Part shown: positions 3,695 to 61,285 of the stretch, piece by piece
How positions within the stretch are numbered: the stretch's first letter is position 1
Layout: each line of letters opens with the position of its first letter
Assembly (NCBI RefSeq): GCF_000165425.1
Contig: NW_001799028.1
Coordinates: forward strand, 148,274 to 212,273
Source of the DNA: Paramecium tetraurelia
Taxonomy: Eukaryota > Ciliophora > Oligohymenophorea > Peniculida > Parameciidae
DNA: 64,000 nucleotides
Direction: 5' to 3'
The notes under the pieces: model-generated
The model's database searches: none
What the model was told of the DNA's origin: nothing
Seen by the model: the letters and a program-made list of their open reading frames with translations, nothing else
Made by a program: the position numbers and the translations under genes

Positions 3695-6600
3695 ATGATT
3701 CAACAGATTTCAATCCAAATTTACATAGCTCTTATGTTGTTACAACATCTGATTATAGGGGAGTGCGCTTCCGTATGTCCTTTTACTAACTACAAAAATG
3801 CTCTTTTGGTCATTGACTCATCTACCCAAAGCTACACCGAATCCATTAATGATAGTGAAAACTATGATACTTTTGGATTTGCATTCTGGAGTATCAGTAT
3901 TCCATTGCTTGAGAAGCTTGAAACTGCAAATAGAGATGGGCCGTTTAAGAATGATGTGTCAGAAGATGGACAACTGTTATTTTTTGTCAAAGATTCATCG
4001 ACTACCTCAAACTTTATTTACGGTTTTAAATCCTACGACTATTTAAACAGGCAGGTCAAGCACACCATTAAATTCATTAATCAAGATATTAGCCAAAAAT
4101 TTATATTCTCATTTGGATCATTAGAATACGAAGGAATCTGGATTTACCATCAAGTTTTATTGTAGCCAGCTTTAAACAAAATTATTGTTGAAATGAGTAA
4201 CTAAGAAAAACAATAAGCAAATTTTGATTTATAAAATCAATTGAGTTTATAAATCAGTATCGGAGGAAGAGGATATGTAATTAATCATATAATCAAATTA
4301 GATTGATTCGTTGAACCTCAACTCGTTTAGAGGAAAATAATCGAAGTTAATTTATCTGCCCAAATTTGCTTATTCAACAAATACTTTTTCATAGTAAGTG
4401 TAAACTTGCAAGATACCACCAATGGTTACTGGAGAATAAACCATCAATATCATCTCTGGATTAAGGTTATTTGAAGGAAATTAAGTGCTATAGCAATTCT
4501 TAGATCTTTATGGAAATAGGTACTGCATTTAGGGATGGGTTAAATATTTATTACCAAAAGTGGACGAACAAAGTTATACGCTATTGAAGTTGTCAGGCTA
4601 ATCCAACTTTGAGAAAGAAATTACACTAGGAGATGAGCTGTTCCGAGTAGAAAGTTTCATTTCAAAGAAGAATCCTAAATCCACATCATTAATTATAAAT
4701 GCTGATGCTTATGGTATGCCTGTGAAGTAGTCATTCCAATCACAATATGATCTATTATTCTAAGGATCCGGAAATCCAGACTACAGCGTATTATAAGCGA
4801 AAAGAACTTATCAAGATCTCAATACATAACTATATTTTGAAGGATTGTAACAATGGCATTATATTTAATATGAATATGGAAGAAGTAATATTGATTAAAG
4901 GATGTTATTGTAGATTTAATTTTCAAATGATTTAGGAAAGCTATACGAAAATCTTGGAAACCATATTTTTAGTGGCTCTTTTACAAATGCTAGACTTAAT
5001 TTATTTTTTGGTGGAGACACTACTAATTCAAATACCAATCATGAATTTATTGAAGCTTATATATATGATTTCAAAATGCAATTTAACTATGCCGAAGATA
5101 AACTATTTAACCTAAGTAACTATTAACATTATGCTAGATTGCCATTATACTTGTAAGACATGTGAAGGACCATTAATATCGAATTGTTTAACATGCGATG
5201 CTAATTCCAATAGATTTTATCAAGTTGAATTAAAAATGTGCAAATGCAATTCTGGTTATCTAGATAAGGGTATCCCTATTTGTGACAATAAATTTTATTC
5301 ATCAGTTCAATAAGAAGAATAGCCAATTGATTTAGAAGTGCCATGTCCAATTGGGTATTTTAGATTACCCAAAGATGATGGGAGTGGATATGATTGTCTA
5401 TTATGGTATTTCTAATGAATATTACATTTAGTCCTTAAATGAAAAATTTCTTTGGAGTGCTGTGTGCGGATTGCTACTTCTATCCTTTAACTTTTTATTT
5501 GGAACCTGTGTGCACTATGGATTTTTTCACAATCAAACAATTAAATGATTATGAGGCATACCATTTAATAAAGAGGACTGAAGCTCAAAACGATGCTTAT
5601 TCTATAGAATCTGATAGAGCATTGCACCTAAATCCTGAAATAGCATATTATTGTTATATTGATTCTTGCTTGCCGTAGGTTAAATACCATCTTGGTAAGC
5701 CTATAACGGCTGAATGCAAACCAAGTTACTACTATCACGACGAGGTGCAACTCTGTTTAAATCCAGGCATTGCTAATTGTTTAAAAGTCAATATAATACC
5801 TGGATGTAGTCTATGTGCTCAAGGTTATTACCTTGTTAATTATAATACTTGCGGCAGATGCCCTACTAATTGTTATGCTTGTATTTCTGATTGTTATGAT
5901 TGTTCTGGTAATAGAGGTGCGATATGTAACACTTGTATATAATATTACAACCTGTAATAAGGAGTATGTAAACAATGTGGACTTCGCTGTGATTTTTGCA
6001 AAGACTATTATGATTAGTATTTGGGAAAAAACTATCTAAAATGTTTAAAATGTATTGACGACTCTTTGTACTCATTTTCTTTTGATGGTATTAATTGCAT
6101 ATCAAATGTAATTCCTAATTGCGTTCATTCATTTTCTGCACTTATAGATGATTACACAATAAATACTCTTGATATCTATTTCGTACCTTAATTCGATTAA
6201 AGCAAGATCGAATTATTATGCGCAAAGTGCTAGCCAAACTATGTTTTCGTATTTGAAACTAAATCCTGTGTTTTTAATAATATTAACAACCAATGCGATA
6301 TTGGTATTGGTTCACTAAAATCAAGTGATCAATCATTAGAAAGTGTCACTTGCCTCAAATCATATTATTATGAAAACCAAATTGTTGAATTTATGGAAAA
6401 ATGCGAAAACTTAGTTAATGATTGTTAAGTCTGCCTTGAAACTAACATTCAAAATTATTACACCTGTTTGGAATGTTAAAATGGATATTATGCAGAATAT
6501 ATAAGTAATCGATGTGTTTAATGTCCAAGTCAGCTTAATTGTATTTCATGTTACTCTCAACATTCAGTCTCAAAAGATCATTGGAAGAAAGATGTTAGGG

Positions 6601-9600
6601 CATTTTATAAAAAGTATATTGAAATCAAAAACACACATTAATATATCCTCAATGCATAGAGTTAGAATGTCAGTGATTATGAAGTAGTTTGTTCAGTCTG
6701 TTAAGATGGGTATAGGTTATATAAGAATAAATGCATTAAATATTGTTCTGATACCTGTGCAGAATGCTTATTTAAGGATGATCAGTATTATTGTGTTAGG
6801 TGCTAAAACGATCAAAAAGGAAGAAAACAATCTACTTACCTTAATGAATGCATAGAATGTCCAGAAGACTGTGCCTTATGTAGGCCGAGAACAAGCGATG
6901 AGATCTTATAGATCAATCCTTTATTTAATAGCACTAAATATGCAAAATACTCTCATTAGTGCATCTTAAGCTTTCAAGATTAAGACTATAGTTATGATGA
7001 AGATATTGGTGTTTTTATTCATTGCGAATCACCTTCTCCTGGGGGCTGTTATAAGTAGTTGGTTATCCGCATGAATGCCTATGGAGACGCAACTAAATAC
7101 TATCAAGATTACAATACATTAACTGATGAAGAAAGCAGGTTATAATTTAGAAGGGAAAACTTTTAATTAAATAATTTTTTTGTCTTAAATTAAACATTTG
7201 GTGAAGTATTATTATTGTCTATATTTAGTATCAAAATGATGAATTTTACTCCTTAGCCAATGCTAACCATGTTAAGTCAATTTTGATTTAAATAACTTCT
7301 GCTTACACATTCAATTTCAGGTCCTCTTACCTGGAAGTAAGCGTAATCAGACAAGTGTTCTCCTAAAGTATATTTTCGCTGATGTATTACTTTTTATTAT
7401 TTCAAGCAATGTGGAACTTGAATTTAATTTCCATGAAGGTTCTACTTTGACTTTAACAAGAGATATGAGTATTTCATTTTTAAACTTCAATAAAGTCACT
7501 ATTAAGAATCTCAAAATCATTGAATGCGCTTATTGTGAAAATGACAGATTCTTATTCAACAGTGTATTTCCTTAAACGGTCGTACTAAATAATATATATA
7601 TTGATCACACCTCTCAGTATAGTGGCAGCCCCTTAATTTTTTCATTACAAAATATCTCTAAGTTTTATTTAGATGGTTTTACTATTGAAGGAATAAATAA
7701 TGACGGCCCTTCATACATATTTGTACTAGAAAGTACAACCTTTTCGAAATAGATAGCCATAAAGAATTTCAAAATTTTTAATACTTAAATTAAAGATAGC
7801 AGAATACTTGAATTAAATTTAAGAAGTGATGATTAAGTATCCTTTGAAAATTTCAATATATCTGGTATTTATGAATTAGTAAATCTCATCAAAATTAATT
7901 CAGAAGATTTCAAAGGTGGTTAGATTACTATGAACAATATACTCATAACTGCCAACATTACTAATTCTCGTGAATTTATACATTTTGAAACGGCTAGCTC
8001 TCTATCCATATCAAATTTTGTACTCTATACATCCGTTCTTGGATAATCAGTGCTAATTTTGCTCAATCACGTTGCCAAATTAGAAAATATGAATTTCACA
8101 GAGAATCAGATTATGGACAATTCAGTTTTACTTTACAACTCCAATCTAAGGAATAATTAAATAAAATTAATCTATTAACTCAATAACATTAAATTTGAAA
8201 ATAATAAGTACAATAGTGTAATTAAATTTATTTATTTTCAAAAATACTCAAGTCTAGACCAAACTATACAGATCAGTCAATTAAGTTAACTCAATAACCA
8301 ATTAATAGATGCCACCTTAACTTACAATATGAAACTAGAGACCTCATCCCTAATACTCATTTAATTCAATTAAGTTCAAGTTTCTGACTTTCTCATTAAT
8401 AGAGGGTATGGATTTAATGATATCACTATCACTGAGTGTTTAACCCTATCAATTCAAAATGGGATTATAATACAAAATAAATTTAACTTTCTAGGATTGC
8501 ATAAGTATTTGCCCTGCTAATTATTATATGTGGATGGATAGTATTTCTCAATCTCGCTGAATATAATATCTTCTAAAGATATTAGGATGCAAAACCTCAC
8601 ATTCTCTAAAGTAGAGTCATACAATTTTCCATATATTTCAATCATTTTAACTGATATTTTGAAGGATATAGATGATTCAAATATTGTTCTAAAGGACATA
8701 GTCTTTTCGGAAAGCCTTATTTTATTATCAGATCCCATCTTCCAGACTGCCTTAATTGGTATTTAATCCTCCTAAGAAACTGTCATTTCGATTTACAATG
8801 TTACCTTTAAGAATAATCTCCTACATTCTTATATAGAAGAAGGGTTTATATTGGCAGCTGGATTACTTTATGTAGATTGTCCTTATTGTCAGATTAGTAT
8901 CCAGCACTCAACCTTCTTGAACAATCTAGTCACCAATAGTAGTTCAAGTATTATGTACATTAAAAGTCAGCAGTTAGAAATCAGCAATTGCTTATTTGAA
9001 AATAATAATATCTTCAATTACAAAATCCTTCAACCTTATTTAATCTGGGCATTCACTCAAACTGTAACTCAAAAAGCAATCCGCTAATTCTTTAAGGTTA
9101 CTTCAACAACTGGAAATGGTTAAATTATAACTGAATAATTGAAAATTCTAAACAGCACATTTTCCAATTCTGGTGGAAAATTGGGAGGTTGTTTTTCAGT
9201 TTCTGCATTACGAACATCCAGAATTGAAATCATTAACAACGTATTCCAAAATTTTTCAACATTATTTATAACTGAAATCGAGTAAGGAGGTGTCTTCTAC
9301 ATAGATGGTTCGTCAACCTCATATTTGGAAATTATAATCAAAGACTTAACTGTTCGTAATGTACATTGTAGATAGTATGGAGGCTTCCTATATCTGAAAT
9401 CTAACAACTCTGAAGTTCATCTTACGATTACAGATGGAATGTTTAATGATATCTATGCGTAGTAAGGATCTGTCATTTATGCGTCATATTCTAATTTAGT
9501 AGAAGATCCATAAACAGTAAACATATAAGAAATAGAAATTATTAATTCTCAAAGTGGCTATATTAAATATCTTAATGAATTTAAAGAACTTTCTACTTAA

Positions 9601-12600
9601 TAAGAAATAAGTAGTTTAATTAATAATAGATCATCAATTTATATAGAAGATGGATCTAACATCCTAATTCAAAATATATCCGTTAATAATTTGAAGTTTG
9701 AATCTTTTCTAAACTTGGAAAGTTCAAATTTCATATACATATCAGACATCGTTATCGAGGATAGTCAAATTAGTAATAATCTTATTAGAATGTCCTAAAA
9801 TTAATGTAATCATTTATTTAAACTATTTAGATGTAAACTTAATTCGCATTTTGTTTCGATCAATAATTGTTGGATTTAAAGAGTAATCTACAGGCTGTTC
9901 AATCACACCTGACACGAATTAAATTATTAATTATGCATGTGCAGTTGGATTTGGAGGTGCTCCTGCATATATAGAAAATGACATTGATGATGACAGTGTA
10001 GATAGAGGATTGTGCGTCAATAATATTATTAGATTAAATTTAGACTTATCTATTTCAGGCTTAATAATTATTAATGATATAGAAGACCAAGACTACGTGA
10101 AAATAAGTTAGTTTGATTTGAGTAACATCTCCTGTTCCAGTTGCACTAACGGAGTGCTGTATCTGCAATTTTTAAATGAAACCACATTGTAATAAACATA
10201 ATTAGTCTAAAATCTCAAGGTAACTAATTCGATTTGTGGGAACAAAGGATGTATGGTTGTTGAAAAGCTGTTAGGATAGGATGGTAGAATTCTTACTTAA
10301 CAGGAGGCATTTTAATAAGAATATGAATTATAGATTACTGATTACATTTGTGAAAATAATTTAGGATTTACTGGAACTTGTCTGATTCTGAATTCAATTT
10401 TCACTTTGATTTAAGATAGTGTGTTGTAACATAATAATGCAACATTCTAAGGAGGAGCTATTGTAGTAAAAGGGTCAGACTAAATAATCATAGAAAACTC
10501 ACTTATTTAATATAATAAAGCAGAAGTGGGCGGAGGAATGTATCTCGAAAAGATATTTGCTCTAAATTATGAATTATTAAAAACGAGAGTTATTTTGAAT
10601 TCTGCTAATTTTTATGGAGATAATGTAGCATCAAATCCTGAAAAGCTGGCCATATAAATCACATAAAATGAGATGCTTTAAAGTAAAATCTTAGTTGAAA
10701 ATTCAACAACCAAAATAGAAGAAGTTGTTGTAAAGCCTTTCACCTCTATTAATGGAAAAAATTCTAAATTTGTTTAATTGCCCACTGGACAGTAGATATC
10801 GACGTATTAATTTTTTGATTGGAGGAATTAAAATTATATTAATTATGATTTGATTTTTAGAATTCATGCTTAAAATAGAAAAATGCACTTGATTTAAAAT
10901 TTATCTAGTACTGCTTGTACCATAAATAGTAGAAGATATAATATTTCAGAGTAGGATGAGGATCAAGAATTTACAAACAACTTCACTAAATAAAATACTA
11001 TTTTTTATAATTCTGAGACTTAAGATTACAATTTAGATGAGCTGATTGTGTATTTTGATAACGACGTTCCTGAAGAGATTGTATTATAATTAGAATTTCA
11101 ATGTGATTCAATCAAAATTCCAATATTCAATACCACCTATCCTTATTAGACTTTAAGTTTTCATAATGATTATAGTCTTAGAATCAATGTTAAGACTTTA
11201 GAATGTTAATTTGGAGAAATTAAAAATTTAACTGACTTCTCATGTGCAATTTGCGATTCAATATAAGGTCTATTTTCTTTAACTTTAAATGCTCAAAAAT
11301 GTGATATTTAAGATGATATATCAACAATATCAGTCAGGTCAAATTAATTATAACTTAGACCTGGTTATTGGAGACCGTATTTCGATACATCAGAAATCAG
11401 CACTTGCATAAATTTACAAAGCAATTGTTTAGGAGGTTGGAAAAACGGGGATATCTCCTGTTACGTTGGTCATATAGGAGCACTTTGTGAACAATGTGAC
11501 CTATACGATACGAGAGGAGACGGTTCATTCTCAGTTGTTAGTAGATACTCTTGTGGATCATGTTAAGATAAATACGAGAATATTGCTCTTATTGCTGGCA
11601 TCATTATTGTTACCCTCATATTTTTGCTTATCTCTATTAAAGGAACTTTGAATTCAATAGATGAGTTTAGCAAATTTAACCCCTTTATTAGATCCTCACA
11701 CACTAAACTCAGTCCTCAATCAAGTATTCTGATCAAAATTTTGACCAATTATTTTTAAATTATAGCAACCATTACTACCTTCTAATTACAATTACCTTAA
11801 GGATTAGTCAGTACCATTGATGGAGTAGGTAATCCTATTCAAACAGCAACTTATTCACTTGATTGCTTTTTAGTTAATTTTTCTAATATTTAAATACAAT
11901 ATACTAGAATGATATGGCAGATCATTTTACCAATCCTTTATATTACTCTTTTTATGGGCTTATTTTTCATTGCTTCTAAATAGCGTCTAATAGGATCGAC
12001 CTTAAATTGTAGTGTAATGTCAACCACTTTAATTTATTGCTACATTTATTTCTAACCAAATTTAATAAATGGTTTTGTCCAATTAGTGTCCTATAGAGAT
12101 ATATCCGGCTTTAAGTGGATCAAGGCAAACGTAGCTGATAGATACGATACTCTTAATCATTTATAATGGATGCTGAAGTTTAGCATGCCAGCTCTCATTA
12201 TTTTGGCTATTCTCATACCGTGCTTCTTCTTCTATGGACTTTTCAGCAATAGAAACAATCTAACTTCCAAAAAAGAAGTAAAAATGCGTTGGGCATATCT
12301 GTACGTTGAATACAAAGATACAGTATACTTCTGGGAATTGGTTAAAATCATTGAAAAAGAACTGATTATCCTATCACTTATATACTATGAAGACAGTATA
12401 GTCATTAAGGGTGTCTTGGTGCTTCTCATCACTTATTTGTATTAGGAATTAAATCAAAATTATCAACCATATTCAATGATTAGAATGAATAAGTTAGACT
12501 ATTATTCAGCTAATATTTGTATGATCACTATTTGTTTAGCTATTGGAGCCTATATAGCATAGGAGGCGGAGATTAAAGAGTTGTAAATACCCTTTTTAGT

Positions 12601-12976
12601 GATTATGGCCCTATTAAATTTTCTATTCCTTCAATCCATTTTAGTATAGATTGTATCCAAATACGCATAATAATATGAAGATACTTTAGATAAAATCAAA
12701 GACTTCATTAAAAAACAATATCCAAGCTATAAGAGTTCTAAATATCTGGATAAGGTCTTGGAAAGCCGAACTGATAAAAGAAATAGAATAATGATGTTAT
12801 TCCAAAAACTTAAGAAATTTGCTATTCCTTTAGGGAAACTTATGATCTAAACCAGAGAAAATTATCAAAAAACTAAACAAAAAATAAGTACGATTGAATT
12901 TCACACTAGATAAGAGACTTTGGATGTGGAAAAATCATCTTAAAAGAGATTACTTGCTCTACCAAATATAAAATGA
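3695..12976 (+). CDS. Giant LamG/Cys-rich/beta-helix membrane protein, copy 1
   Basis: A product of about 3,000 residues read through dozens of TAA/TAG codons to TGA 12974-12976. Order of parts: a signal peptide (residues 1-25); two LamG/jelly-roll-like regions (about 3.8-5.1 kb; GIWIYHQ is typical); a long Cys-rich furin-like region starting CHYTCKTCEGPL (5.1-7.0 kb) with many CxxC pairs; a repetitive Asn/Ile/Phe-rich stretch (7.4-11.1 kb) resembling right-handed beta-helix repeats; a GDGSF-containing Cys knot near 11.5 kb; then about 8 transmembrane helices (11.57-12.7 kb) and a basic cytosolic tail. Small introns are seen at 5116-5137, about 4276-4300, about 5405-5430 and elsewhere; I did not resolve every one. 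It is probably a cell-surface protein. Function is unknown. Its paralogue lies at 52,009-61,285. Confidence 0.85.
5116..5137 (+). other. 22-nt intron found only in giant gene 1
   Basis: The exon ends at ...TTT AAC CTA A and resumes AT TGC CAT TAT, so the spliced protein reads LFNLNCHYTC. The paralogue at the matching place reads LFNVDCHYTC straight through with no intron. Unspliced, copy 1 reaches TGA in the same frame after about 30 more nt. The intron has GTAAC at the 5' end and CTAG at the 3' end. Confidence 0.8.
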
Positions 12977-13744
12977 GAATTATAAAAAATTTAAAATATT
13001 TCTTTTTTTTTATATAAACCATTAAAATATCAAATTGGAAACTTAGATCTTAAAATTCTTAAACTTATTGACTTTTTTAAATATTTTTATTAAATTTTGA
13101 TGTTGTAACATTTCTCTAACACTTTATTAAAATTGTATATTTTTACTTTGTAAATATATTAACAATTAACAATTATTATTGAATTAAATATAAAATATAT
13201 ATACAACACACAATTTAACATTATATTGTATCCTTATTCCTATTGTTATATATAAATAATTCATTTATAACATAAATTTGAAGCATTTTGAGTCATTGTT
13301 TTTCTAATTTAAGTGATATTTCTGTTCTATTTAATTATTAGTAACAAACAAATTGTCAAAATTTTATTGAAATAATAAAAAAGTAATATCTCATAGTCAA
13401 ATATGAGAATAGTAATTTTAAATTATTATATGAATATACATCTTGAAGTCAAAATGAAGATTTATTAATTTGTAGAAGATTATGAAAAATTTGATCATTA
13501 TTATTGTTTGAGATGACCCTTTTCCTTTAACTCTACTTTTCTTCGAATACCATCTTTTTTGAATTAAATAAAAAGGAAACAGATTATTAAACCAATTGTT
13601 TAATTCAAGTAATCAAAAAACTCAAAGACATATTTCATCATAATTCAATAAATATGTATTTTCTTTAAATAAATCTTATTAATAATAATTTTTATAATAC
13701 AACATTTTTCATTATTTTTAATTATAAATTATTTACATTAAATA
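12977..13744. other. AT-rich intergenic stretch, nothing recognised
   Basis: About 770 bp of very AT-rich sequence between two plus-strand genes, with no frame longer than a few dozen codons that looks coding. It should hold the 3' UTR of the giant gene and the promoter of the carrier gene. It is long for this genome, where most gaps here are under 150 bp. I see no tRNA or repeat structure. Confidence 0.5.
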
Positions 13745-14780
13745 ATGAATGATGACACATTAATAATCAGGATTACTACTTACTCTAGTATGTTTGCAGG
13801 AATCATAGGAAAGATAGCCTGTCATCCCATTGATACAATTAGAGCTAAGATACAGGTATTTTATATTCTCATTAAAAGATTAGACAAACAATGATGCTTA
13901 AGATTAAAGCTGACAAATTGATTTCAACTTTGGTAAAGGAGACCTTAAGAACTGAGGGTCTTCGTGGACTTTACAAAGGGCTTGGAATAACGATAGTAAA
14001 AATGATAATTTCTATATAGATAGGAACAGGACCTGCATATTCTTTATATTTAACAACTTACGAGACATCAAAGTACTTTTTAAATTAGTTGAGTGTAAAT
14101 AGTGTCATTTATCTTAGTTTATGAAGGACAGTCCCAATTTAATATCCTTTACATCTGGAATGATGGCTGAAACTATCAGTTGCATCTTCTGGTTGCCAAT
14201 AGACGTGATAAAAGAGAGATTACAAGTTCAAAGCAATTTAAAGGTTTTTGATTATAAAAATACATTTGTATAATGCTGTGAATATTCTAGGATGCCATCC
14301 AAAAAATTCTAAAGTCAGAAGGAGTGGTTGGTTTATATCGAGCTTATGGAGCAACTGTAGCCTCATATGGACCCTTTAGTGCATTCTATTTTATGTTTTA
14401 TGAGAAATTAAAAAGTAATTCAGTTTATAGGAAATAAAATAGCAATTTTGGAAAATCCATTGTAACCGTCCTTTTTAGAGAGTCTTTGTCTATCGGGGAT
14501 AGCAGGATCGATGGCAGGATTTATATGCAATCCAATGGATATCGTGAGACTGAGAATGCAGGTATAGAGAGCCTCATTGGCCACTCATGCAGAGACAGGC
14601 AATTTTGGATACAAGAACTTAATACATGGAATGTACAAGGTTGTAAGCAATGAGGGGATATTGTCTTTGACAAAGGGATCGATGGCAAAAGTGTTGTACA
14701 CATGCCCTAATACTGCAATTTCAATGAGTGTGGCAGAAGTAACTAGATCTTATTTTATTAATAAATACAAGAGTCATTGA
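13745..14780 (+). CDS. Mitochondrial carrier family (SLC25) protein
   Basis: Five small introns (23, 24, 23, 23, 28 nt) give a 304-residue protein, the standard SLC25 length. All three signature repeats of the PxDxxRxxxQ type are visible: HPIDTIRAKIQ, LPIDVIKERLQ and NPMDIVRLRMQ, each opening one of three two-helix modules. Glycine-rich matrix helices such as GLRGLYKGLG and GVVGLYRAYGA follow the first two. Members exchange metabolites or ions across the inner mitochondrial membrane. The substrate cannot be told from sequence alone; the second signature has Lys for Arg. The C-terminus ends in a basic YKSH. The 3' end lies 36 bp from the convergent kinase gene. Confidence 0.92.
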
Positions 14781-14816
14781 ATATAATTATAAATAGCTAA
14801 AGGAATAAAATTTACA

Positions 14817-16192: not shown

Positions 16193-16260
16193 ATTAATTA
16201 ATTATATTTATACTCTTAACCAATTATTGATAATGCATAATTATTTATATAATATTTGAA

Positions 16261-16730: not shown

Positions 16731-16775
16731 ATTACTTAAATTTTTTAAAAAAAAATTAATATCTATTTTAAATTA

Positions 16776-17275: not shown

Positions 17276-17435
17276 TTTGCATTATCAAACGATGTACAAT
17301 AAATATATATAAATAAATAATATTATTATATAAATGGGAACTATTCTCACAAATAAATATAAAAGGATAATATTTATTAATAATCACATCATAATACATT
17401 GATATCTTATTACATGATTTTTAATTTAAATTAAT

Positions 17436-17759: not shown

Positions 17760-17808
17760 AATGAATTATTTAATATTTTATGTAAATGTGTACTATACTT
17801 TAGAATTA

Positions 17809-19757: not shown

Positions 19758-19775
19758 TTTAATTTTATTTATAAT

Positions 19776-35084: not shown

Positions 35085-35988
35085 NNNNNNNNNNNNNNNN
35101 NNNNNNNNNNNNNNNNNNNNNNNNNNNNNNNNNNNNNNNNNNNNNNNNNNNNNNNNNNNNNNNNNNNNNNNNNNNNNNNNNNNNNNNNNNNNNNNNNNNN
35201 NNNNNNNNNNNNNNNNNNNNNNNNNNNNNNNNNNNNNNNNNNNNNNNNNNNNNNNNNNNNNNNNNNNNNNNNNNNNNNNNNNNNNNNNNNNNNNNNNNNN
35301 NNNNNNNNNNNNNNNNNNNNNNNNNNNNNNNNNNNNNNNNNNNNNNNNNNNNNNNNNNNNNNNNNNNNNNNNNNNNNNNNNNNNNNNNNNNNNNNNNNNN
35401 NNNNNNNNNNNNNNNNNNNNNNNNNNNNNNNNNNNNNNNNNNNNNNNNNNNNNNNNNNNNNNNNNNNNNNNNNNNNNNNNNNNNNNNNNNNNNNNNNNNN
35501 NNNNNNNNNNNNNNNNNNNNNNNNNNNNNNNNNNNNNNNNNNNNNNNNNNNNNNNNNNNNNNNNNNNNNNNNNNNNNNNNNNNNNNNNNNNNNNNNNNNN
35601 NNNNNNNNNNNNNNNNNNNNNNNNNNNNNNNNNNNNNNNNNNNNNNNNNNNNNNNNNNNNNNNNNNNNNNNNNNNNNNNNNNNNNNNNNNNNNNNNNNNN
35701 NNNNNNNNNNNNNNNNNNNNNNNNNNNNNNNNNNNNNNNNNNNNNNNNNNNNNNNNNNNNNNNNNNNNNNNNNNNNNNNNNNNNNNNNNNNNNNNNNNNN
35801 NNNNNNNNNNNNNNNNNNNNNNNNNNNNNNNNNNNNNNNNNNNNNNNNNNNNNNNNNNNNNNNNNNNNNNNNNNNNNNNNNNNNNNNNNNNNNNNNNNNN
35901 NNNNNNNNNNNNNNNNNNNNNNNNNNNNNNNNNNNNNNNNNNNNNNNNNNNNNNNNNNNNNNNNNNNNNNNNNNNNNNNNNNNNNNNN
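35085..35988. other. Assembly gap (904 Ns)
   Basis: The sequence is unknown here. Any reading frame reported across it is not evidence. The gap may hide the main part of the gene whose 3' end lies at 34,732-35,084. Confidence 0.99.
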
Positions 35989-43662: not shown

Positions 43663-43678
43663 TTTTTTTATTTATTTT

Positions 43679-44363: not shown

Positions 44364-44376
44364 AATGAATTATTAC

Positions 44377-44397: not shown

Positions 44398-44411
44398 TTA
44401 TTAATAACTGA

Positions 44412-46442: not shown

Positions 46443-46537
46443 TAAAATATATATGTTTAGACAATTAGATATATATTATTTATATGTATGTATAATTATA
46501 TATAAATATTATCAAAAATATAGGAAAAAAGCAAAAG

Positions 46538-48912: not shown

Positions 48913-48950
48913 TTTTATGATTATGAATTCTTTAATATAAATAGATGAAG

Positions 48951-49423
48951 TCAAACTGTAGATTCAATTTAAACTTTAAAGCATCTGATGTCACCCGTTT
49001 ATTTATAATATACATAATTTTTGAAATTCTTGGTGTATTGATCCCACATCTACTTCTCCTTTAATTCATCTGTCACAATATACACTGTCGCATATGGTAA
49101 GCCAAAAATCATTAATTTCATCAAAAATGATGTCCATTTGCCTTAAATTCTTGAAATCAAAGGGAGATTCTTATAAAAGTATATTGCAATTAAAGAGACA
49201 CCAACTGAACCTATCAAACCATAATCTCGATATTTTTGTAATTCAACATGTTATTTGAAGAATTCATTCTTGAAAACATAATAATTAAGCAATTATTCCT
49301 TTAATAGAGTTAAATAGCAGATACATTCTTCATCATGTCTTTATAGAATTGATTATTATTAACCTTAGGATAGAATTTAACGGTATAATCGTGATTATAG
49401 AGATCTCTCTTGGGTAACAACAT
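48951..49423 (-). CDS. Small two-TM protein
   Basis: One 26-nt intron gives 148 residues from ATG 49423 (MLLPKRDLYNHDY). Two hydrophobic segments, LIGSVGVSLIAIYFY and LMIFGLPYATVYIV, flank a basic loop. The C-terminal third is polar. It could be a small organelle membrane protein, possibly mitochondrial; no family is recognised. It sits 38 bp from the convergent USP gene and 64 bp from the kinase on its other side. Confidence 0.6.
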
Positions 49424-49487
49424 TATCAATTTAATAAATATATTTAAATCCCATTCCAATTTGGTTACAAAATATTCTTATAATTAA

Positions 49488-51234
49488 TCATTTTATTAGA
49501 GCAGAATACATGACATTTAGATCATAAAGCTTATTTTCCAATTTTTGAGTTGATAATGAAATTATTTCGTTTTCTAAATTCTTTGGTTCAAATTCATTTT
49601 ATATAAACTTCTAAGGATGAAGCGAGAAGTACATGTTAATTTATAATGTATAAATCTGTCTTAAAGTAGCTTCGTCAATGATTTACCTTTTTTTGATTGA
49701 CTTGGTGATTTCATCTATAAATTAAATGTACATTTTGTTAAAGATTTCCTGTGATCTTTTATTTTTCTAATTGGTTTGAACTAATTCAGCTATAATTTGT
49801 ATCTAGGTATGATTAAATGAAATTATTTACAAGTGGATTATTCTAATCAGCTGCTTTTAATTTCACAAATTATGGTAATAATTTTTCATTATAAAATTAG
49901 TTCATTTATTCTTGATTGGTTTTAAAATAGTTTAACACTTTGTAATATTTGGCTTAATCAGTTTAAAACATTTTGATGTCATTCTCCTTGAAATTGATTT
50001 CGCCTGGAGGAAGCTAAAAGTTTAAATGATTATCAATACATTGCTCTGCAAGATTTACAAATAAAAATTATACTCATTTAACAAATACTTAGTTGATGTT
50101 AAACTAAACAATATTTACATAGATTGATTGATTTAAAGTTTCTCTTGTAATGTAAAGAATAGTCGAGTAGTATTATTATTAGAAAATGAGATTATTCTTT
50201 GAACATAATCAAAGTAGTCCTTCATTTCATCAATCTTATTGATCTACTATTCAACCTTTTAATATTTGGTTTGAAAGCTTTCACTATCACTCATATGAGT
50301 AGATGCCATACTCAAATTTTCATTGGTCACAACCTGAAAAGGTGTGTCTTTTGATAAAAATAAGAATAAATCATCCCATCTGATTCTCATTTCTGGATCT
50401 ACCTTTAGCATTTTTGTTAATAAAGTTTTGTAAGACTCATTTATTTGAACTTCTTGAGGAAATTTAAGTGGTTCTGTTGTTATCTTCTTATGCAATCTAT
50501 TTGGATGATTGTCAATAAATGGAACAACTCCATACAGCATTTCATAAAAGATGACCCCCAAAGACCAAATATCAACTTTAGATGAATATTTTGAACTAAC
50601 CATCATCTCTGGAGCCTGATACAAGAGTGTGCCAACAACAGTTTAATCTACGGCTAAATCCATTTCCTCTATTATCTTCGCAAATCCAAAATCTGCTATT
50701 TTAGCTACACCCTTAGAGAATAGTATATTTTCTGGCTTCAAATCTCGATGAAGAGTCTTCAAACTGTATAATGTTTTATAGCCCTCCGCTATTTGACAAA
50801 AGATTTGATAGGCACGTTCTTGGTGCAATTGTCTCTTTTGTTATCGATTCAATAATTTATTTAGGTTTCCCTCCTCGCAAAGCTCTAATATTAAGTTTGT
50901 CGATTGATCACATACAACTACATCTAACATTCTAATTACTATTTAAATTTGATACTTCACAACATGTTCGCTGTCTATATTGCAGTGAATCTCACGTTCT
51001 CTCTTATATAACGTCTTCATTTTTTCTATTGTTTAACCCGGAGAATTAGCAGGCAAACTTTGGAGAACCTTTATGGCCACTTTCTCTTATGCTTTTCCTT
51101 TCACAAAACCTTCAAAAACTTAGGCAAAAGCGCCCTATTTTCAAAATATTCATTACTGCTCCTATCATTTTTTTCTTGTATAAAATATACTTTTCTCCTA
51201 TTGGTTTTGTATCTAAATTTTAAGAACTAAGCAT
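49488..51234 (-). CDS. ULK/ATG1-like protein kinase
   Basis: The kinase domain is intact: IGAGAFAQVFEG (an intron of 22 nt lies within the glycine loop), VAIKVLQ, LHRDLKPENILF, IADFGFAK, and YQAPEMMVSSKYSSKVDIWSLG (APE motif). The activation loop is short. A C-terminal extension of about 250 residues is helical and Asn/Gln/Lys-rich. The kinase core resembles ULK/ATG1 and aurora/CAMK-like kinases; ciliates have large ULK-like families, so a role in autophagy is only a possibility, supported by the nearby ATG13-like gene. Several introns are needed in the C-terminal part, not all resolved. Confidence 0.65.
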
Positions 51235-52008
51235 AGTTTTTTTATTATTTTATAAATATTAATATCTACAAATCGAAATCTCAAATAAATAATTCAAGTT
51301 TGCATAAATGTCTATCTGAGATCTGCGAATGTCCATACGATTTATAAGTAGAATTATTTAAAATTCTAATTACTAACATTTTTTCTGGAATTATTTAAAA
51401 TATATTTTTTAATTGAAAACATACCCCATTCTAGAAAATTAATTTCTATTTTCTAAATTTAAGTGCGAATGAGGCTAGAAACATAATAAACAGAGTATAA
51501 GTTCAAAAGGGTTTAAATATCCTCTTAGCTCTAAATTGAAATAAATTTACAATAAAAATAGGAAAATTTCTGTAAATATACAAATTCCCAAGTTGATTAT
51601 AATAAATGGTAAAGGAAAAATTAAAATTATAGAATTTTGATAAATTTCCTATTCACGTTTAAGAATATGAATTTCTCCCAAATTAATATAAATTATTTAT
51701 AATAGTCTTAAGAACTCATATGATATCTAAAAGAATACATATGTAAAGTATTGCTTAAATATAATAATATGATGAAGGAGGAGATATTAATAAAAATACT
51801 GTGATGCTTTCAATATAGAATCAAAGATACATATAGATAATTCTGTAATTATAACAAATGATAATATTAAGAGGTTATCAAAGTTTTTAATCAAGTTGAA
51901 ACTAGTTTAGTGTGATATTAAAATAATATAGTTATAAAAAATGAAAATTATATTATTATAAAACTTTTGGATATTAATTTAATACTAAATTATACCATTA
52001 TCATAAAT
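51235..52008. other. AT-rich intergenic stretch
   Basis: About 770 bp between the ULK-like kinase start and the end of the second giant gene, both on the minus strand. It must hold the kinase promoter and the giant gene's 3' UTR. I see no coding frame or RNA gene. The length is almost the same as the stretch after giant gene 1 (12,977-13,744). Confidence 0.5.
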
Positions 52009-55000
52009 TCAATAATGGCTACTCTAAAGAAATCTTTGCATAGTTACTTTGTCAGGTTCTTAGAGATCTAGTTTGGTCTCTTTTCTCTAATACCCTTAAG
52101 AATCAATAATTTCACTAATTTTAAATCTTTTGTAATTTTCAATTGATTAATTTTTTTATTCAATTATTCTTTTTGCCAAAGTTATGCCAAACACTCTCAA
52201 TTTTTTGAATGCTTTTTAAACTCTTTCCTTTTCTTAGGTTTTGTTTTTTAGTAGGTTCTTGAAATATCTTGAATGCTGTAAATTTGGTAATTTGGATTTA
52301 ACTATTTCTTTTAATTTATCAAATGCAAATTAATAAGCCTTTGAATACTCTGCTATTATTTTAGTAATTATCTTATACAGGAAAAGAAAATTAAAGAGGG
52401 CCATCATGATAAAAAATAATATTTAAAGTCCAGATATATCTGAAGATTAGGCTAAATATGCTCCAATGGCTAGGCTGATGGTAATCATACATATATTTGC
52501 AGAATAATAATCTAAATTGTTGAGACTACTTAATTTGTAGGGTCTGTAATTGCTATTGAGTTCTTAATAGAGATAAGTGATGAAAAGTACTAGGATACCT
52601 TTAACTGCTATGCTATCCTAATAATAAATCAGAGATAAGATGATTAATTCTTTTTAAACTATCTTTATCAATTCCCAAAAGTAGGCTTCTTCTTTGTATT
52701 CATGATATAAATAACCCCAATGAAGTCGAGTAGATCTTTGATCTTAGACTCTTCTGCATTTATAAAGTCCATATAATAAATAGAATGGGATTAAGATACC
52801 CAAAATTAGTAAAAAAGGTAGACAGAAATAAACCATCCATTTAATGTGAATAATCGTATCATACCGTTCTGATACATTGGCTTGTATCCATTTAAATCCT
52901 GAAATTTACCTATAGGATGCCAATTAAACTAAGCCATCTGCTAAATTGGGAGAGAAATAAAGGTACCCATAAATCAAGGATGTAGTGGGAACACTGGAAT
53001 TGTACGATGCTAATTTAAAATGAGCTGCCATCAAATAGAATCCCAGAAAGAAATTAATATACAGAAAAGGCATGATGATTTGCCATATCATCCTACTATA
53101 TTGAATATCTACATGAATTATATTTACTAAAAAGCAATCAAGAGAATGAGTAACTGTTTATAAAGGATTTCCTACTGCAGATATGGTACGATTCAACTCT
53201 TATGGGAAATTAAGTTAAAATGTAGTTATGGTAACAATGATTTAGAGATAAGTTGTTAACATCTTAATCAATATGCCCGACTATGCTTTATTTAAAAAGT
53301 TTGAGATTCTCATGTTTTTGAATGGCTAACCTCGAGTGTGTTACTCAACTGTTTTTATGTTACCAGAGACTGAGATAACAATAAAGATCATAGTCATGAT
53401 AATTACACCTACAATCATAATTACATTTCTGCCCTGATCCAAACAAGTTCCACAGGTATATTATTCAGTCACTGAAAATGAACCATCTCCTCTGATATTG
53501 TATAAATCACATTATTCACAAAGAGCTCCTAGATGTCCAATATAGCAAGAAGTATCACCTTCATTCCATCCACCATTGCAATTCTTTGGTAAATTGATGC
53601 AATAACTGATTAATTTTGTATCAAAATTAGGTCTCCAATATCCATTCCTTAATTGTATTTAATTATTCTAAACAGCAATAGATGACATATCATCCTTTAC
53701 ATCACACTTTTATGCATTCACTTCTAATGAATAGAGTCCTTGAGTTGAATCACATTGTTCACAAGAGAAATTAGTTATGTTTTTGATTTCCCCAAATTAA
53801 CATTCGAAAGTCTTAACATTAATCCTTAGTTTATAGTTATCATGATAACTTTCAACAAAATATGGATATTCTAAACCAAAAATAGGCACCTTAATTGTCT
53901 CACACATGAATTCAAGTTGAAGTACAATATCTTCTGGTACTTCATTATTAAAATACACAATTAATTCATCTAAATTATAATCTAAAGTATCTGAATTAAA
54001 TTTAATTGAGTTAAGATTTGTGTAATTGTTAGTGAATAATTAATCCTCATCTTCCTTAGAAATATTATATTCTCTGCTCTGAATAGTACATATTGACCTT
54101 TCAATTGATGGATTTAGATTGATAGTCTAATCTCTGTTTAATGTTAATATTCGAAATATCATTTTAGCATTTATGAATACTTAATTCTTCCAATCAAAAA
54201 ATTGATATTTAGATATCGATTGTCCTGTTGGCAATTGAACATATTTAGAATACTTTCCATTGATAAGTTAAAATGGTTAAACCATAATTTCATCAATTTT
54301 CATTGTTTTATTGTCAATATAATTAACTGTATTCAACATAGCCAAATCATCCTTTAATTAAATTGACAATCTTTCAGGATTCGAAGCGATATTATTACCA
54401 TATAAAATAGCTGAATTCTTCTAAAGTATTGTATGAGTTTATTCGTAATTCATCGATAATTAATCTTGAAGATAAATGCCCCCTCCAACATTTGCTCTAT
54501 TATTTACAATCATACTGTTTTCAACTAAAAGAGGTTGGTCTCCTAAGATATACAGAGCTCCACCATTATTTGAAGCATTATTTGATTAAAATGTTGAAAA
54601 TTGTATCATAGTTTTAATTTAGTTCAAATAGAGGCAAGTTCCATCTTTACCAAGATTAAGGAAACATAAATAGTTAGAAATTTGTAGATCATATTGTAAC
54701 TACGACTATATCTCAATCAAGTTTCTTCTACTTAATAATTAGATCCTCTCGACAACTATACACCCTTTTTAACCACAATTTGAGTTTAGTACTTTTATTT
54801 GATTTAGTTATTAGCTATAGGCTTTCCACTCCTGTAAATTTGAATCTTAAAGTTATAGAGAAATCAATCCTGAGTTACAAACCTTACAGTCTACTTATCT
54901 GAGGAAAACAACATACATTTCTAATTAACACTGGAGAGTAGAATATTTGAAAACTATCAATCCTGAATTAGAAACATCTAATTGTTTCCTTAATGATATA

Positions 55001-58000
55001 TACAAACATTGTCCAATCAATTCGTAGTTATCATCATCCTGCTCGAGAGAATTAGGGGCCCTTTAAGATACCATTGGGCATTCATAGAAAGCATCTTATA
55101 CTGTGGATGTTGAATTTGTACAAGTCAGATTTTTAAATTCAAATCCTACAAAAATAAACTCTATGTTGAAGTTACGTAGCCTTATTGTAACATTCTTATC
55201 TATTAATTTAAATTAGATAAATACATAAAACGGGATTTATTGAGATCAATTAATTACTGATATAACTATTTTATATATTTATTGTATCCATATAAATATT
55301 CCTTGTGTTTTACAAATTTAGAAAAGATTCTTGAATTAGGTAATATGAAGATATATTTTACAATGTAAGAGAGGATCCATATTCCACAAAAAATAATGTT
55401 CTATTATTAATTACATAGTATTTTTCAAATTCATTAGCAACTATTGTAAATTTATTTAAAAATTGAAAATAGCCATTTTGAGAGTTTGTAATTTCTAATT
55501 TTTAGATGAAAATAGTTTATTGATCCTCAACTAATCTCGAATAGGATATGAACACAACAGATCCTTGTTATGCATAAATGTCTCTTAGAATAATGTCGCT
55601 TATTGTGAGATTAGTTTAAGAGTTATTAGATTTTAGATACAGAAATCCTCCATATTATCTGCAATGTACATTTTCAACTTTTGTGTTTTTTATGAAAATT
55701 TCAAGAGCTGCTGCAGAAGAACCTTCGATGTAAAGGACTCCTCCTTGTTCAATTTCTTAATAAAACTAGGTCGACAAATTGTAAAATGAGTTATTTTCAA
55801 TTATCATTCGAGATGATCCTTAAGCAAATATAGAGAAACAACCGCCTAATTATCCGATTGAATTGAAGAATTTACTATTAAGTATATTCAATGATTAAAC
55901 CCAAATTTATCCATTTCCAGACAACGATTTTACTTAAAAGACTTTATTGATAATTTTTTAAGTTAAAGGTTGAGTAAATCCCCACAATAAATGAGGTTTT
56001 AAGACATCATAATTAAAGATATTGTTACTTTCGAAACTACAGTTTGTTAATTCAAAAGATTTAGTTACTATTGATAAAATAGTTCCACTACTATTCGTGA
56101 CAATATTATTGTTGAAAATCGAATTCAATAATCGGATTTAACAGTTTGGACAATTAATTAATAGCAGTCCAGTTTATTTTACTAAATCATCTTAAATGTA
56201 TTCGTGGAGAACATTAAGTTGAAATGTTAGATTATTGATTACGATTATACTTTCTTAAAGAGAATCAATTTAAATCAAAGAAGGTGAAAATTATACTTTA
56301 CTTAATAGTAGTAAATTTTATTAAAAAAAAATATTCTCTAAAACAAGATTTTCCAAAATTCTTCTTTGACTCAATAAGGCTGATTGAATCTTGATAATTG
56401 GAAAATTGTATGTTGAAGCCTATATTATTGAGACATTCTAAAATGAAGCATTCTAAAAAGATCCAATATTTATTGAAGAAGGATATAATTGACCTTTAAC
56501 TTATTTTAATTGGCAATTTAAATTCTTATGCAATCCCAAGAACTAAAATTATTCTTACCTTATTTTTCCATTTATTATTGATAAAACCTTTGATTCTTAT
56601 AATGAGAATTCAATTAATCCAAAGCCTCTATTAATGAAAAAGTTGATTATCGAAATCTCGTCAAACTGAATTAAGACTAAAGAAGAATCAATCTGTTATT
56701 AGTTATACTCTAGGGCTTCATCTACTAAATAATTATTAATAAGCTTAATTTCTTCAATTTTAACCCGTTAAATTGAACTCTAATATTTGTTGAATTCAAT
56801 GAATTTAATGACATTATTATATTTATTGTTTTCAAATTAGACATTATTAAATTAGTAATCATAATCCAAATAAGATAATTAGTTCATATTAATAATTCCA
56901 AAGCTACTAGATATAAAAGAATTACTTAGAAACTGTACATTATTTAATAAAGCATCATTGTTCAGAATGAGAATTGTTGAACTATTTATGACTGTTTACA
57001 TTATACTAAAATTTGTTATTTCTATTTCCTTAAAGGATTATAACGCAAAAAAGGTTTTGCTATCAGATATTTCACTCTCGATTTCTATGTTTTTTAATAT
57101 TAAATATCCTGCTGGAGCCAAAGTGTCGATTTAAATAAATGTTATATTGTTGAATTATGAATTTTATACAGTAACTTTATCAAACTCAATCACATCATTT
57201 TCTTACAATTCTATCCGAAATATAATTGAATTTGAAAATTAACAGTTTGTTATTTCTAAATCTTTAAAAATAATAGATTTATTAGCATTTGATCCAGATA
57301 TCGTAAGAAACTAATCTACACTTGTTTAACCAAATGAAATAAGTTTAAGTCCATTGGCAAAGAGGTTTTGTAGATTTTATATTTAAATCTTGAAATAATC
57401 AAAATATGATGGCTCGTATATTTGTTAGATTGTAATTTAATTCAAAGTAATAATTTACGGGAATACACTATCAAAAATAAGGTTTATCTAAGAATTACAA
57501 GGAACACATGCATCAAAAGTAATATTAATTAGTAAAATCTTGTTGAAATTACTGAACTACACTAATTCTTTTATAGATATTACAGTTCCTTAAGGCATTT
57601 CAAAAATTAGTTCAACATTTCTTTCTATAATAAATAATAATTTACATAACTGAGAAAATGTTATTGCAAAATTTTTGACTAAGAATACCAGTAATACTAG
57701 CATTACTAATTAGAACACTAACAACTTTTATTACAATAGATTTAATTTATTTCATATTGGCCAGTGTGTAGAATTCTTCATTTTCAAACTAAAATACATT
57801 TACTTAAATACTTCACCAAATAACATATCAAATGAATTAAAACTTTAGAGATAGGTGTTTCTTTTTTTGAATTCAATTCTACTATCTTCATCTTATAATT
57901 TATTCAAATCATCAAAATAAAGAAATTAATCCTAATATAAATTTAATTCTATAATTAATTATTTATAACATCCATTTCCATTTGAAGTTTATTAACATTC

Positions 58001-61000
58001 TACATATAATCCTAAATCTTTATCATAATAATAACTTTAGTCATCATAACTCTTAACGCATTGATTAGTGTACTTTTAATATTTCTAATTGTTGAATAAT
58101 GGATTAATTGCTTCAATCTCTTAGGCTGACCTTGGCCTACATAACTGACAATTTTCTGGGCATTCAATACATTCATTATTGATAATAGATTATTTTCTTC
58201 CTTTTTAATCCTTAAAGCACTTTACACAATAATATTAATCATCTTTTAATAAGGATTCAATGCAAGAATCTGAAAAATTTTTTATGCATTTATTTTTATA
58301 TTCTCTATATCCATTTTAGCACACTTAACAAACAAATTCATAATCATTTACATTTTAACTCTGAGCATTTAGAGTAAATTAATGAGTATTTGTTATTTCT
58401 ATGTATCTTCTATAAAATGCTCTAACATCTTTTTTCCAATGATCTTTTGAAATAGAATGTTGCTAATAACATTAAATACAATTCAGCTCATATGGACATT
58501 AAATACACTAACCAGACGCTTATTCTGCATAATATCCAGTTTGACACTCTAAACAAAGAAAATAATTTTGAATGTTAGTCTCAAGACAAACCTAACAATA
58601 CATTACTTTTTTGCTGCAGTTTTCAATAAATTCAACAACTTCTTTTTCATACTTATCTGACTTTATACATGATAATAATTCTAAGGTTTGATCACTTCTG
58701 AACTATCCAATCCCTGTATAACAATTTTCAGTATTATCATAATAAATGCATTATTAGCTTCCAAAAACAAATAAATAATTTGGTTCACATTTTGCACATA
58801 ATAATTTAAATTTACTTTAATCAAACTATGGTGTGAAATTGATATCCAGAGAGTTTATAGTATAATCATCATCTAATGTTTAAAATGCATACTCACAATG
58901 AAGAATGTCATTTAATATGCAATTAATACCATCAAGAGAAATTAGGTATTGAGAATCATCAATACATTTCAAACATTTCAAATAACTTTATCCCAGATTA
59001 TCATCATAAGTATCTTTACAAATTTCACAATCACTACCACATTTAATACATGCACCATTTTTAATAGCATATTATTCAATACATGTTTAACACATCAATC
59101 TATTTAATTGATCTCTTTAGCATGAAGTGCAAGACTTAGGGCATGAAGAACAAAAGTAAAAAATTAAGTACATGCCTAATGGACAATCAACACAATATCC
59201 AAAAATATCATATGTCTTACAAATATAATCACTTTTCAAACACAATTAATTATCCATATCAAATAAATAATTATATTTGCATTTTAAAGTAGCTTAAGAC
59301 CCGAGATGGGAATGAGCTGTTTTATGACAGTAACTGTTTATATTTATAGAATACTAACAATAATCTTCGTATTCTGTATATAAATGTATCTATTTATCAT
59401 TCCCAATCAGATAAACATCATTTTAAGCAGGAATCCTCTATTTAAGGACTAAAGTTTCATCATGATATTTTTAAAATATTTATTGATAATCTTATTTACA
59501 TTACTGGGTTTAGATACCATGTTTTTGGATAGAACAAACAATCAACACATTAAATTGATGTAGTTCTCTTCAAAGATGGACTACATTAAATATTAATCAT
59601 ACCATTCTAGACAATCATAATTACTTCCTATCTCATCAGGTAACATAAAATATCCAAAAGGACATTTATCTTCTAACTCTATTGCAATTTCTTCTTGAAT
59701 TATTGAAAAGTATAATTAATTCTCACATTTAATATTACCCTTTTCAACGGAACCTGAGAAACACTCGCATATTTTTAATTCATCCTAATAATATCTATTC
59801 GAATTAGGATCACAAGTTAAGCAATTTTTTTCCAATGGTCCAAAACAAGTCAAACATGTGTAATGGCAATCAACATTAAACAGTTTTTCTTCGTTATAAT
59901 TGTACTGCATCTTAAAATTATAAATTTGAGCATTGAGAAAATTATTATTAATTACATTATTTAAGTTATCTCCACCAAAAAATAGATTAAATTTAGAATT
60001 CGTAAATGTTCCACTAAATATATCATTTCCTAAATTGTCCTTTAAAAGTCCTAATTCATTTGAAAATTTAATGATTAATAACATTCTTTCATCAAAGCTG
60101 CTCCTTCCATACTCATACTAAATAAAATGCCATTCTTATAATCCATCATAATAAAGCTACGAATTTAAATCCTAATACTTTTTTCTTGTCTGTAATACAC
60201 TATAATCAGGATTTGATGATCCTTAAAAAATTAAATCATATTGAGATTGAAATGATTATTAAACTGGCATACCATATGCATCAACATTCACCATCATATA
60301 TGTTTATTCTGGTATATTTTAAGATACAAATACATCCACCTTGAATAATTCATCTCCTAAAGTTTTTTCTTATTCAAAGTTAGAAATCCCCTTTAATTTT
60401 AATAAAGTATATTTTTGATCACTTACAGTTGTCAATGTGTATTTAACCCATCCTTGTATACAATATTTATTTCCATATTGATCGATTAGCATCTATAGAA
60501 CTTGGTTTCCTTCAAATAACTTTAATCCTTGTACAATGTTGATGGTCTATTCAAGTCCTATTTTTTAAGGAATCTAGCATTCATTCATTAGTTCTTAAGT
60601 AATAACATTTGAATAATCAATAGAAGATTTGAATATTAATTTACTTTATATTCCTTTAAAATAGTTAAGATTTAAATTGTTGATCTATATTTTTAGAAAT
60701 AATTACATATCCTTTTCCACCAATTATTATTTCTAAATTTAATAGGTTTTAATAACTAAAGTCTGCTGATTATGCATCCTATTAATTTACTTTAACCATC
60801 ATTTTTTTTTATTAATTCTCCAAAACCACTAAATGAAACACCCATATTCCTTCATATTGTAATGAATTGAAATCAAAAATGAATTTAAAATTCCCCAAAC
60901 CATTTTCTAACAGAAATATATGTTACACTTTTTATTAAACATAATCAAAAGACTTATAACAAACTATTAAATTGTCATTTGTTTCAGTATTTTTTAGTAA

Positions 61001-61285
61001 AAAGAGGAATTCTCCAGTCTAAAGTTCATTAATTTTAAATTCTTCACCAACATTTACATTATCAGTTTGAATTAACAATGGAATGCTGAAAGTCCAAAAT
61101 CCAAATATAAATACATCTCCATTTGACTTATTATCAATTTCTAAGGATTTCATCCATTTTTAGCTACCACTATTTATTATTGCCTCTTGATAAGTACTAA
61201 AGGGGCAAGCCAGAGCATTTTTAATAAAATTAAGGTTTAGTATCAATGTTAAGATGGACAAGAAATAAATTCTGTGATTTAACAT
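52009..61285 (-). CDS. Giant LamG/Cys-rich/beta-helix membrane protein, copy 2
   Basis: A minus-strand paralogue of the gene at 3,695-12,976, with the same order of parts. Start MLNHRIYFLSILTLILN is a signal peptide; LamG-like regions contain YEGIWVFHLVVLEN and ENDGLGNFKF-type strands; the Cys-rich part starts VDCHYTCLTCFGPLEKNCL (59.8 kb); the repeat part runs about 57.8-54 kb; the C-terminal module begins near YTCGTCLDQGRNV (53.45 kb) and contains FWELIKIVQKELIILSLIYY and LDYYSANICMITI, both shared with copy 1. The product ends ...QRFLQSSHY, TGA at 52009-52011. It lacks the intron found at 5116-5137 in copy 1 but shares at least two others. Function unknown; probably a surface protein. Confidence 0.83.

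Follow-up and report, generated by a model that had tools for sequence, protein, structure and literature searches.

Two giant genes in mirror orientation

We analyzed a 64,000-nucleotide stretch of the Paramecium tetraurelia genome (contig C75, positions 148274-212273, of the 69-Mb assembly; hereafter, the window), which carries near its two ends a pair of giant genes for putative surface proteins, gene A on the plus strand and gene B on the minus strand. Genes were read with genetic code 6, and splice models were obtained by a Viterbi search and then corrected by homology (A versus B and one relative). The coordinates and spans given for both genes in an earlier note on this DNA were borne out, with an ATG start and a TGA stop in code 6 at the expected positions and spans of 9282 bp for A and 9277 bp for B.

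3695-12976, plus strand: gene A, 7 predicted exons, 3045 amino acids, about 350 kDa
3695-4276, 4302-5115, 5138-5405, 5432-7205, 7229-7383, 7407-9805 and 9831-12976 (stop included), plus strand: exons of gene A, splice model
61285-52009, minus strand: gene B, 6 predicted exons; bridging the single frame break gives 3052 amino acids, about 355 kDa
61285-60707, 60684-59603, 59580-57812, 57788-57646, 57620-55225 and 55199-52009 (stop included), minus strand: exons of gene B, splice model
59499-59508 (near 59504), minus strand: single one-base frame break in B, a change of frame relative to A

The introns of both genes are small (22-26 nt) and of the GT-AG type. Five of them coincide in position and phase between A and B, the fifth of A having been set at 7384-7406 by homology, and A has an extra intron at 5116-5137 that is absent from B. 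Both copies had been taken to be intact, but B as assembled changes frame by one base near 59504. Because B is otherwise open over its 9.2 kb, this break is either a recent lesion or an assembly error.

A and B are homologous from end to end

Alignment of the two translated genes gave 50.4% identity (1521 of 3018 aligned residues), extending from residues 12-13 to the tail. The blastp bit score was 2907 from end to end, and the sole match among 20 shuffled B sequences scored 28. These results indicate that the paralogy proposed earlier is one of full-length homology, not of similarity in motifs only; the motifs GDGSF, ISGFKWI and LDYYSANICMITI were found in both A and B. Overall nonsynonymous divergence (dN) between the two genes was 0.42 and synonymous divergence (dS) 1.96, with a dN/dS ratio of 0.21 that is only rough because dS is near saturation. 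Both genes have been under purifying selection.

A large family with recurrent inverted duplication

In the genome, a 166-residue C-terminal query found 80 places and a 270-residue neck-plus-helix query found 117 pieces; merged, the two queries defined about 87-89 loci with a cysteine-rich neck and a membrane module in 69 Mb, these counts being lower bounds in which whole genes and fragments are mixed. We sampled 20 loci over up to 10 kb (L013 being mostly N, and L015, L016 and L018 partly) and another 19 over 2 kb. For most of the 20 long loci, the greater part of the model could be aligned with A (22-40% identity). Prokaryote contigs of GTDB and viral contigs were each scanned with two peptide patterns, and neither collection yielded a confirmed relative.

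A and B were sisters in a tree of 40 C termini, with support of 100/100 (two rows had less than half of their columns filled), and in a first tree, with support of 100/99. The first tree contained 18 of 22 sequences, each covering more than 450 C-terminal residues; L013, L015, L018 and L022 were dropped. The sister relation at 100/100 and the dS of about 2 support the old local inverted duplication that had been suggested for the pair. The outer flanks of A and B had no mutual match. Between the inner flanks there were just two short matches, neither in mirror arrangement: one of 35 bp, and one of 56 codons (34%) that links two minus-strand genes. An inverted duplication of the whole neighborhood was rejected, since the flanks are not mirror images. 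The agreement of the two spans to within 5 bp, to which the earlier note had drawn attention, means little because 12 of 20 other modelled members also span 8.4-9.6 kb (the other eight models are shorter, in most cases truncated by N, by the end of a contig or by an error in the model).

Some other members lie close together as well. Twenty-two of the 80 matches were within 50 kb of another, against a simulated mean of 8.0 and maximum of 22 (2000 simulations on equal-sized contigs). Among 13 neighboring pairs within 60 kb, 11 were on opposite strands (one-sided binomial probability about 0.01, with some pairs sharing members), and 5 of these 11 were sisters: A/B, C47 206-/230+, C80 257-/274+, C74 108+/155- and C155 883+/885-, the last with weak support (94/78) and a poorly filled row. 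The pairs on C220, C47 339-/363+ and C134 64-/108+ were separate in the tree, those on C186 and C134 108+/110- fell in small mixed clades, and C34 formed an unresolved trio. Because five neighboring opposite-strand pairs are sisters, local inverted duplication recurs in the family, A/B being one case.

Several loci showed further peculiarities. The tandem members L018 and L015 (C216:100181-102046 and 107937-110159) have 97.8% and 98.5% DNA identity over about 1.7 kb at the 3' end, which encodes the neck and membrane module, whereas the protein upstream is only 28-41% identical. Their membrane module looks homogenized, by gene conversion or duplication, below different ectodomains; an N run lies inside one copy, and an assembly error is possible. 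This arrangement recalls the transmembrane exon common to all mating types in Tetrahymena MTA/MTB. Weaker neck matches in short frames (56-64 amino acids) occurred at C34:194592, 216010 and 263845 and at C87:12090 and 46171. The three on C34 lie about 9 kb from three similar C34 copies (a trio with 87-91% DNA identity), and these weak matches may be relics of family copies that belong to repeated units; on C34 one unit out of three is inverted. On 17 contigs of known length, 6 of 25 matches came closer than 10 kb to the end of their contig (C38, C9, C216, C13, C62 and C194), perhaps a subtelomeric tendency.

Parts of the two proteins

A and B have the same order of parts, as had been described. 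The borders below are approximate.

3695-4276, plus strand: A, hydrophobic, signal-peptide-like N terminus (by hydropathy) and first LamG-like region (putative, no Pfam match)
4395-5115, plus strand: A, second LamG-like region, 65% identical to B
5138-7070 (end approximate), plus strand: A, cysteine-rich region with more than 60 Cys; weak Ephrin_rec_like matches in relatives
7407-10741 (end approximate), plus strand: A, N/I/S-rich repeat region, probably a beta-helix, from PMP-repeat matches in relatives and motif counts
11162-11566 (approximate), plus strand: A, cysteine-rich neck adjoining the membrane, GYWR...GALCEQC...CGSC, from an 18-member alignment
11567-12691 (approximate), plus strand: A, C-terminal module of about 8-9 predicted membrane helices, from family hydropathy and PF06011 matches in relatives
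12692-12973, plus strand: A, basic, putatively cytoplasmic tail, the least conserved part (30% to B)
60707-61285, minus strand: B, first LamG-like region with the N terminus, which looks hydrophobic by eye, from A/B comparison
59872-60594, minus strand: B, second LamG-like region, by alignment
57950-59871 (approximate), minus strand: B, cysteine-rich region, by alignment
54290-57619 (end approximate), minus strand: B, repeat region, probably a beta-helix, from motif counts
53434-53838 (approximate), minus strand: B, cysteine-rich neck, from the 18-member alignment
52314-53433 (approximate), minus strand: B, C-terminal membrane module, from the 18-member alignment

Identity between A and B was about 40% in the N terminus and first LamG-like region, 65% in the second LamG-like region, 57% in the cysteine-rich region, 42% in the beta-helix region, 62% in the post-helix part, 70% in the cysteine-rich neck, 56% in the membrane module and 30% in the tail. 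These comparisons, like the trees, used an earlier model of A that differs only around residues 1185-1199. As in A/B, the neck and module were more conserved than the beta-helix region in all six other pairs that could be scored (seven were compared).

When ten exon pieces from the two genes were scanned with Pfam, no match was convincing (two unrelated ones were far below cut-off), and none was to Kringle (MAR was not sought). PDB sequence searches with two pieces of A and four family profiles found nothing useful, with one chance-level match to a cystatin. The signal peptide proposed for both proteins stands better for A, whose N terminus exceeds the hydropathy threshold, than for B, which falls below it. 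In the second LamG-like region, Laminin_G_3 matched 1 of 14 aligned members at 3.2e-4 (A and B were among the 14, neither matching), and the first LamG-like parts of A and B had no Pfam match; we use the LamG label tentatively. A contains 107 Cys in total and B 103. In the cysteine-rich region, which is probably extracellular, Cys columns are conserved in 17 members. Ephrin_rec_like gave eight weak matches genome-wide, four of them within 10 kb of family loci; those in the family had E values of 0.3 to 5.6, and the two best genome matches were elsewhere. The cysteine-rich neck and the helices are present at the C terminus, and an EGF-like identity of the neck was backed by no profile.

The membrane module and PF06011

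Family-averaged hydropathy of the C-terminal module showed ten peaks, three of them adjacent, which we read as about 8-9 membrane helices. Many polar or charged residues in the module are near-invariant across 18 members. In a direct scan, the profile of fungal TRP-like channels, PF06011 (TRP), matched 3 of 15 members (best E value 0.022). Searched genome-wide at E values up to 10, it gave ten matches (best E value 0.0048), all ten on the membrane module of the family, a target that covers, margins included, 0.44% of the genome. By contrast, none of 117 genome matches to control membrane profiles fell on the module (PF00002, 0 of 2; PF02714, 0 of 3; PF08016, 0 of 45; PF04547, 0 of 67), and readings of it as an adhesion G-protein-coupled receptor (7tm_2, PF00002), OSCA, polycystin-channel or anoctamin domain were rejected. 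On C193, one anoctamin match lay some 4 kb away from a family locus and thus not on its module. Because the PF06011 matches are specific to the family's membrane module, we take the link seriously: a relationship of the module to PF06011 is supported but remote. Fungal PF06011 proteins have small ectodomains.

The 67 anoctamin (PF04547) pieces in the genome, many nearly full length, point to a large scramblase/channel family in this ciliate.

For reconstituted fission yeast Pkd2, passage of Ca2+ on stretch is reported (PMC11277609), and its membrane domain is described as having nine helices (PMC11277609, PMC11333956).

The long repeat region

The chlamydial PMP repeat, PF02415, had 17 matches in the genome, 16 of which lay 1.6-2.4 kb from a C-terminal match of the family. 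Three relatives alone exceeded the cut-off (20.6 bits), and A and B were without a match. Of six PMP matches examined, three aligned convincingly with residues 2174-2235 of A and the others weakly; because the convincing ones align there, the matches mark the end of the repeat region. The family shares with PF02415 the repeats GG[AILV] and N..F..N. Over the whole region in A and B together, N..F..N occurred 11 times and GG[AILVFG] 10 times, each against 1.7 expected from shuffles, and F..N alone was not above shuffles. Both motifs were also several-fold over shuffles in 19 members, and were not so in a cysteine-rich control. A beta-helix of the PMP-repeat type is therefore a supported but remote prediction for this region. 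The chlamydial PMP proteins are bacterial autotransporters with no known multi-helix module.

The interval between A and B

The interval between the two genes (13894-51336) was scanned in nine pieces, two of which had no match. It holds unrelated genes: a mitochondrial carrier, two genes for ion channels, of which one has a cyclic-nucleotide domain, a TauE-like exporter (below cut-off), two protein kinases and a ubiquitin hydrolase. A run of N of 904 bases lies at 35085-35988, and an apparent local drop in GC is probably due to it.

Discussion

Ciliates are already known to have multi-pass surface proteins whose ectodomains are Cys-rich or contain a beta-helix; what is added here is the four-part combination at such a scale and the specific PF06011 signal. 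A literature search, with most subscription papers outside its scope, returned no description recognizable as this family and none joining PF06011 with ciliates. The earlier note had found no named family with all of these parts, which holds for Pfam, but two groups partly share the architecture in print. These nearest named proteins, the alveolate cysteine repeat modular proteins (CRMPs), which are Cys-rich and multi-pass, and Tetrahymena MRC2, are near by published description and may serve as leads for function.

A role as host-contact sensor has been proposed for CRMPs in Toxoplasma, and nine helices are predicted in Toxoplasma and Plasmodium and five in Tetrahymena (PMC9670195). Their conserved core is described as two EGF-like domains plus transmembrane domains (PMC9815656), their domain labels include ephrin-receptor-like, furin-like, EGF-receptor-like and parallel beta-helix (PMC9815656, PMC9670195), and a Kringle or MAR domain is listed for TgCRMPa and PfCRMP1, not for Tetrahymena. 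Like the A/B family, CRMPs are described as having Cys-rich repeats and a multi-pass C-terminal core adjoining Cys clusters, and some are listed with a parallel beta-helix, a fold that is predicted for the A/B family (PMC9815656). Unlike them, A and B have no Kringle match in the ten exon pieces scanned, and their family, of about 87-89 loci, adds parts that are LamG-like and about 1100 residues of repeats. MRC2 is described as a large ciliate membrane protein with a pectin-lyase fold and eight predicted helices, a plan that A and B, with a beta-helix predicted from motifs and helices from hydropathy, may share; the components of its mating-type recognition complex (MTRC) are put at 92-212 kDa and the passages describing MRC2 mention no LamG-like or Cys-rich parts (PMC10901506). 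For Tetrahymena, Cys-rich furin-like repeats and transmembrane exons are described in MTA and MTB (PMC3608545), and GFR Cys-rich domains are counted among the seven commonest in species-specific genes (PMC6564038). The O3 mating substance of Paramecium caudatum, described as a kinase-like protein, is unrelated (PMC10974281).

The distant likeness of the C-terminal membrane part to a force-sensing calcium channel of yeast suggests, short of proof, a touch or contact sensor. We tentatively favor, with more doubt than confidence, the reading that A and B are giant receptors for contact whose signal passes to a membrane module of TRP-like type; the broader claim, that they belong to a family of surface-type receptors or adhesins, is supported. 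The protein would lie in the membrane of the cell or cilium, its N terminus facing outward, and the LamG-like parts, perhaps together with the surface of the beta-helix, would bind a partner such as another cell, food or the substrate. Binding or pull, as a force or conformational change, could then reach the membrane module by way of a stiff beta-helix and a neck rich in disulphides, and the module would admit Ca2+ or start another signal; Ca2+ in turn might drive a response such as reversal of the cilia, discharge of trichocysts or adhesion in mating. A large set of copies in which necks and modules are strongly conserved and outer parts have diverged would provide many input specificities with one output.

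Several observations weigh against this reading. The best PF06011 score was 20.5 bits against a curated cut-off of 28.5, all ten matches being below it; these matches are not independent tests because they come from paralogs, and A and B themselves had none in the exon-piece scan or the genome search. The parallel with Pkd2 presumes that it is a member of PF06011. An AlphaFold model of the last exon from two sequences had a mean predicted local distance difference test score (pLDDT) of 29.6 and was unusable. The beta-helix proposed earlier for the middle of the proteins gains from the PMP matches in relatives and the motif counts, but the PMP matches cover only the end of the region, none of 16 genome-wide matches to Beta_helix (PF13229) fell in the family, and hydropathy showed no rung periodicity above shuffles. 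The LamG label proposed earlier for two regions is weak, with its one match among the 14 aligned members and none of seven genome-wide Laminin_G_3 matches in the family. The second LamG-like part is also as conserved between A and B as the module (65%), contrary to the idea that the outer parts diverge.

Could the proteins instead be ciliate exocytosis sensors of the CRMP type, which set off trichocyst discharge on contact through a complex like that of Toxoplasma CRMPa/b and Tetrahymena TtCRMP1/2 and are not channels? The published plan is similar (Cys-rich repeats, a parallel beta-helix repeat and an EGF-like plus transmembrane core; PMC9670195, PMC9815656), mucocyst discharge is reported to be impaired in Tetrahymena cells lacking either of two of the three genes (PMC9670195), and the A/B family has a cysteine-rich region, a neck, about 8-9 predicted helices and four Ephrin_rec_like matches near its loci. 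We nevertheless regard this as unlikely: the likeness is one of published description, the Ephrin_rec_like matches in the family are weak and surpassed by two elsewhere, the LamG-like and long repeat parts are additional, that screen had three Tetrahymena candidates as against about 87-89 loci here, and CRMPs are called apicomplexan-specific in one account (PMC9815656). Recognition proteins for mating or conjugation, related to MRC2, would fit the Cys-rich GFR domains and five helices described for MRC1, MTA and MTB (PMC10901506), but the members are very many for one mating complex, about 350 kDa is well above the range predicted for MTRC components, and the likeness to MRC2 is again one of description; this reading is very unlikely.

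Huge repetitive ectodomains are also what passive adhesins or a surface coat would have, with the membrane module merely an anchor, and adhesins are known to carry repeats of the PMP type. For that purpose, however, one helix or a lipid anchor would suffice, and the multi-helix module ranks with the better conserved parts and keeps many polar and charged residues near-invariant, so this possibility appears quite improbable. Whether B is decaying, leaving A as the sole working copy, is a question separate from mechanism. The frame break and a slightly longer B branch (0.48 and 0.40 versus 0.39 and 0.34 in the two trees) point that way, but the break is single in more than 9 kb, conservation is not lower downstream and a one-base assembly error is equally likely; decay of B is thus rather unlikely.

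A wider extension of the contact-receptor reading is that the multi-helix cores of apicomplexan and ciliate CRMPs, Tetrahymena MRC2 and the Paramecium family form one superfamily of TRP-like, Pkd2-related, adhesion-gated Ca2+ channels, in which a contact pull on the beta-helix and Cys-rich ectodomain opens the channel and leads to exocytosis, mating or ciliary responses. We consider this speculative and improbable as it stands.

The earlier note did not include the family of about 87-89 loci, the break of frame in B or the module's remote link to PF06011. Paramecium responds with Ca2+ signals to touch and food as well as to mates and predators, yet little is known of the contact receptors that act upstream. 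With a membrane output module in common, the roughly 87-89 loci for giant receptor-like proteins provide a concrete candidate set for such receptors. If true, the PF06011 link would also suggest directly that Ca2+ entry gated by force or ligand accounts for the unexplained step from contact sensing to secretion in CRMP biology.

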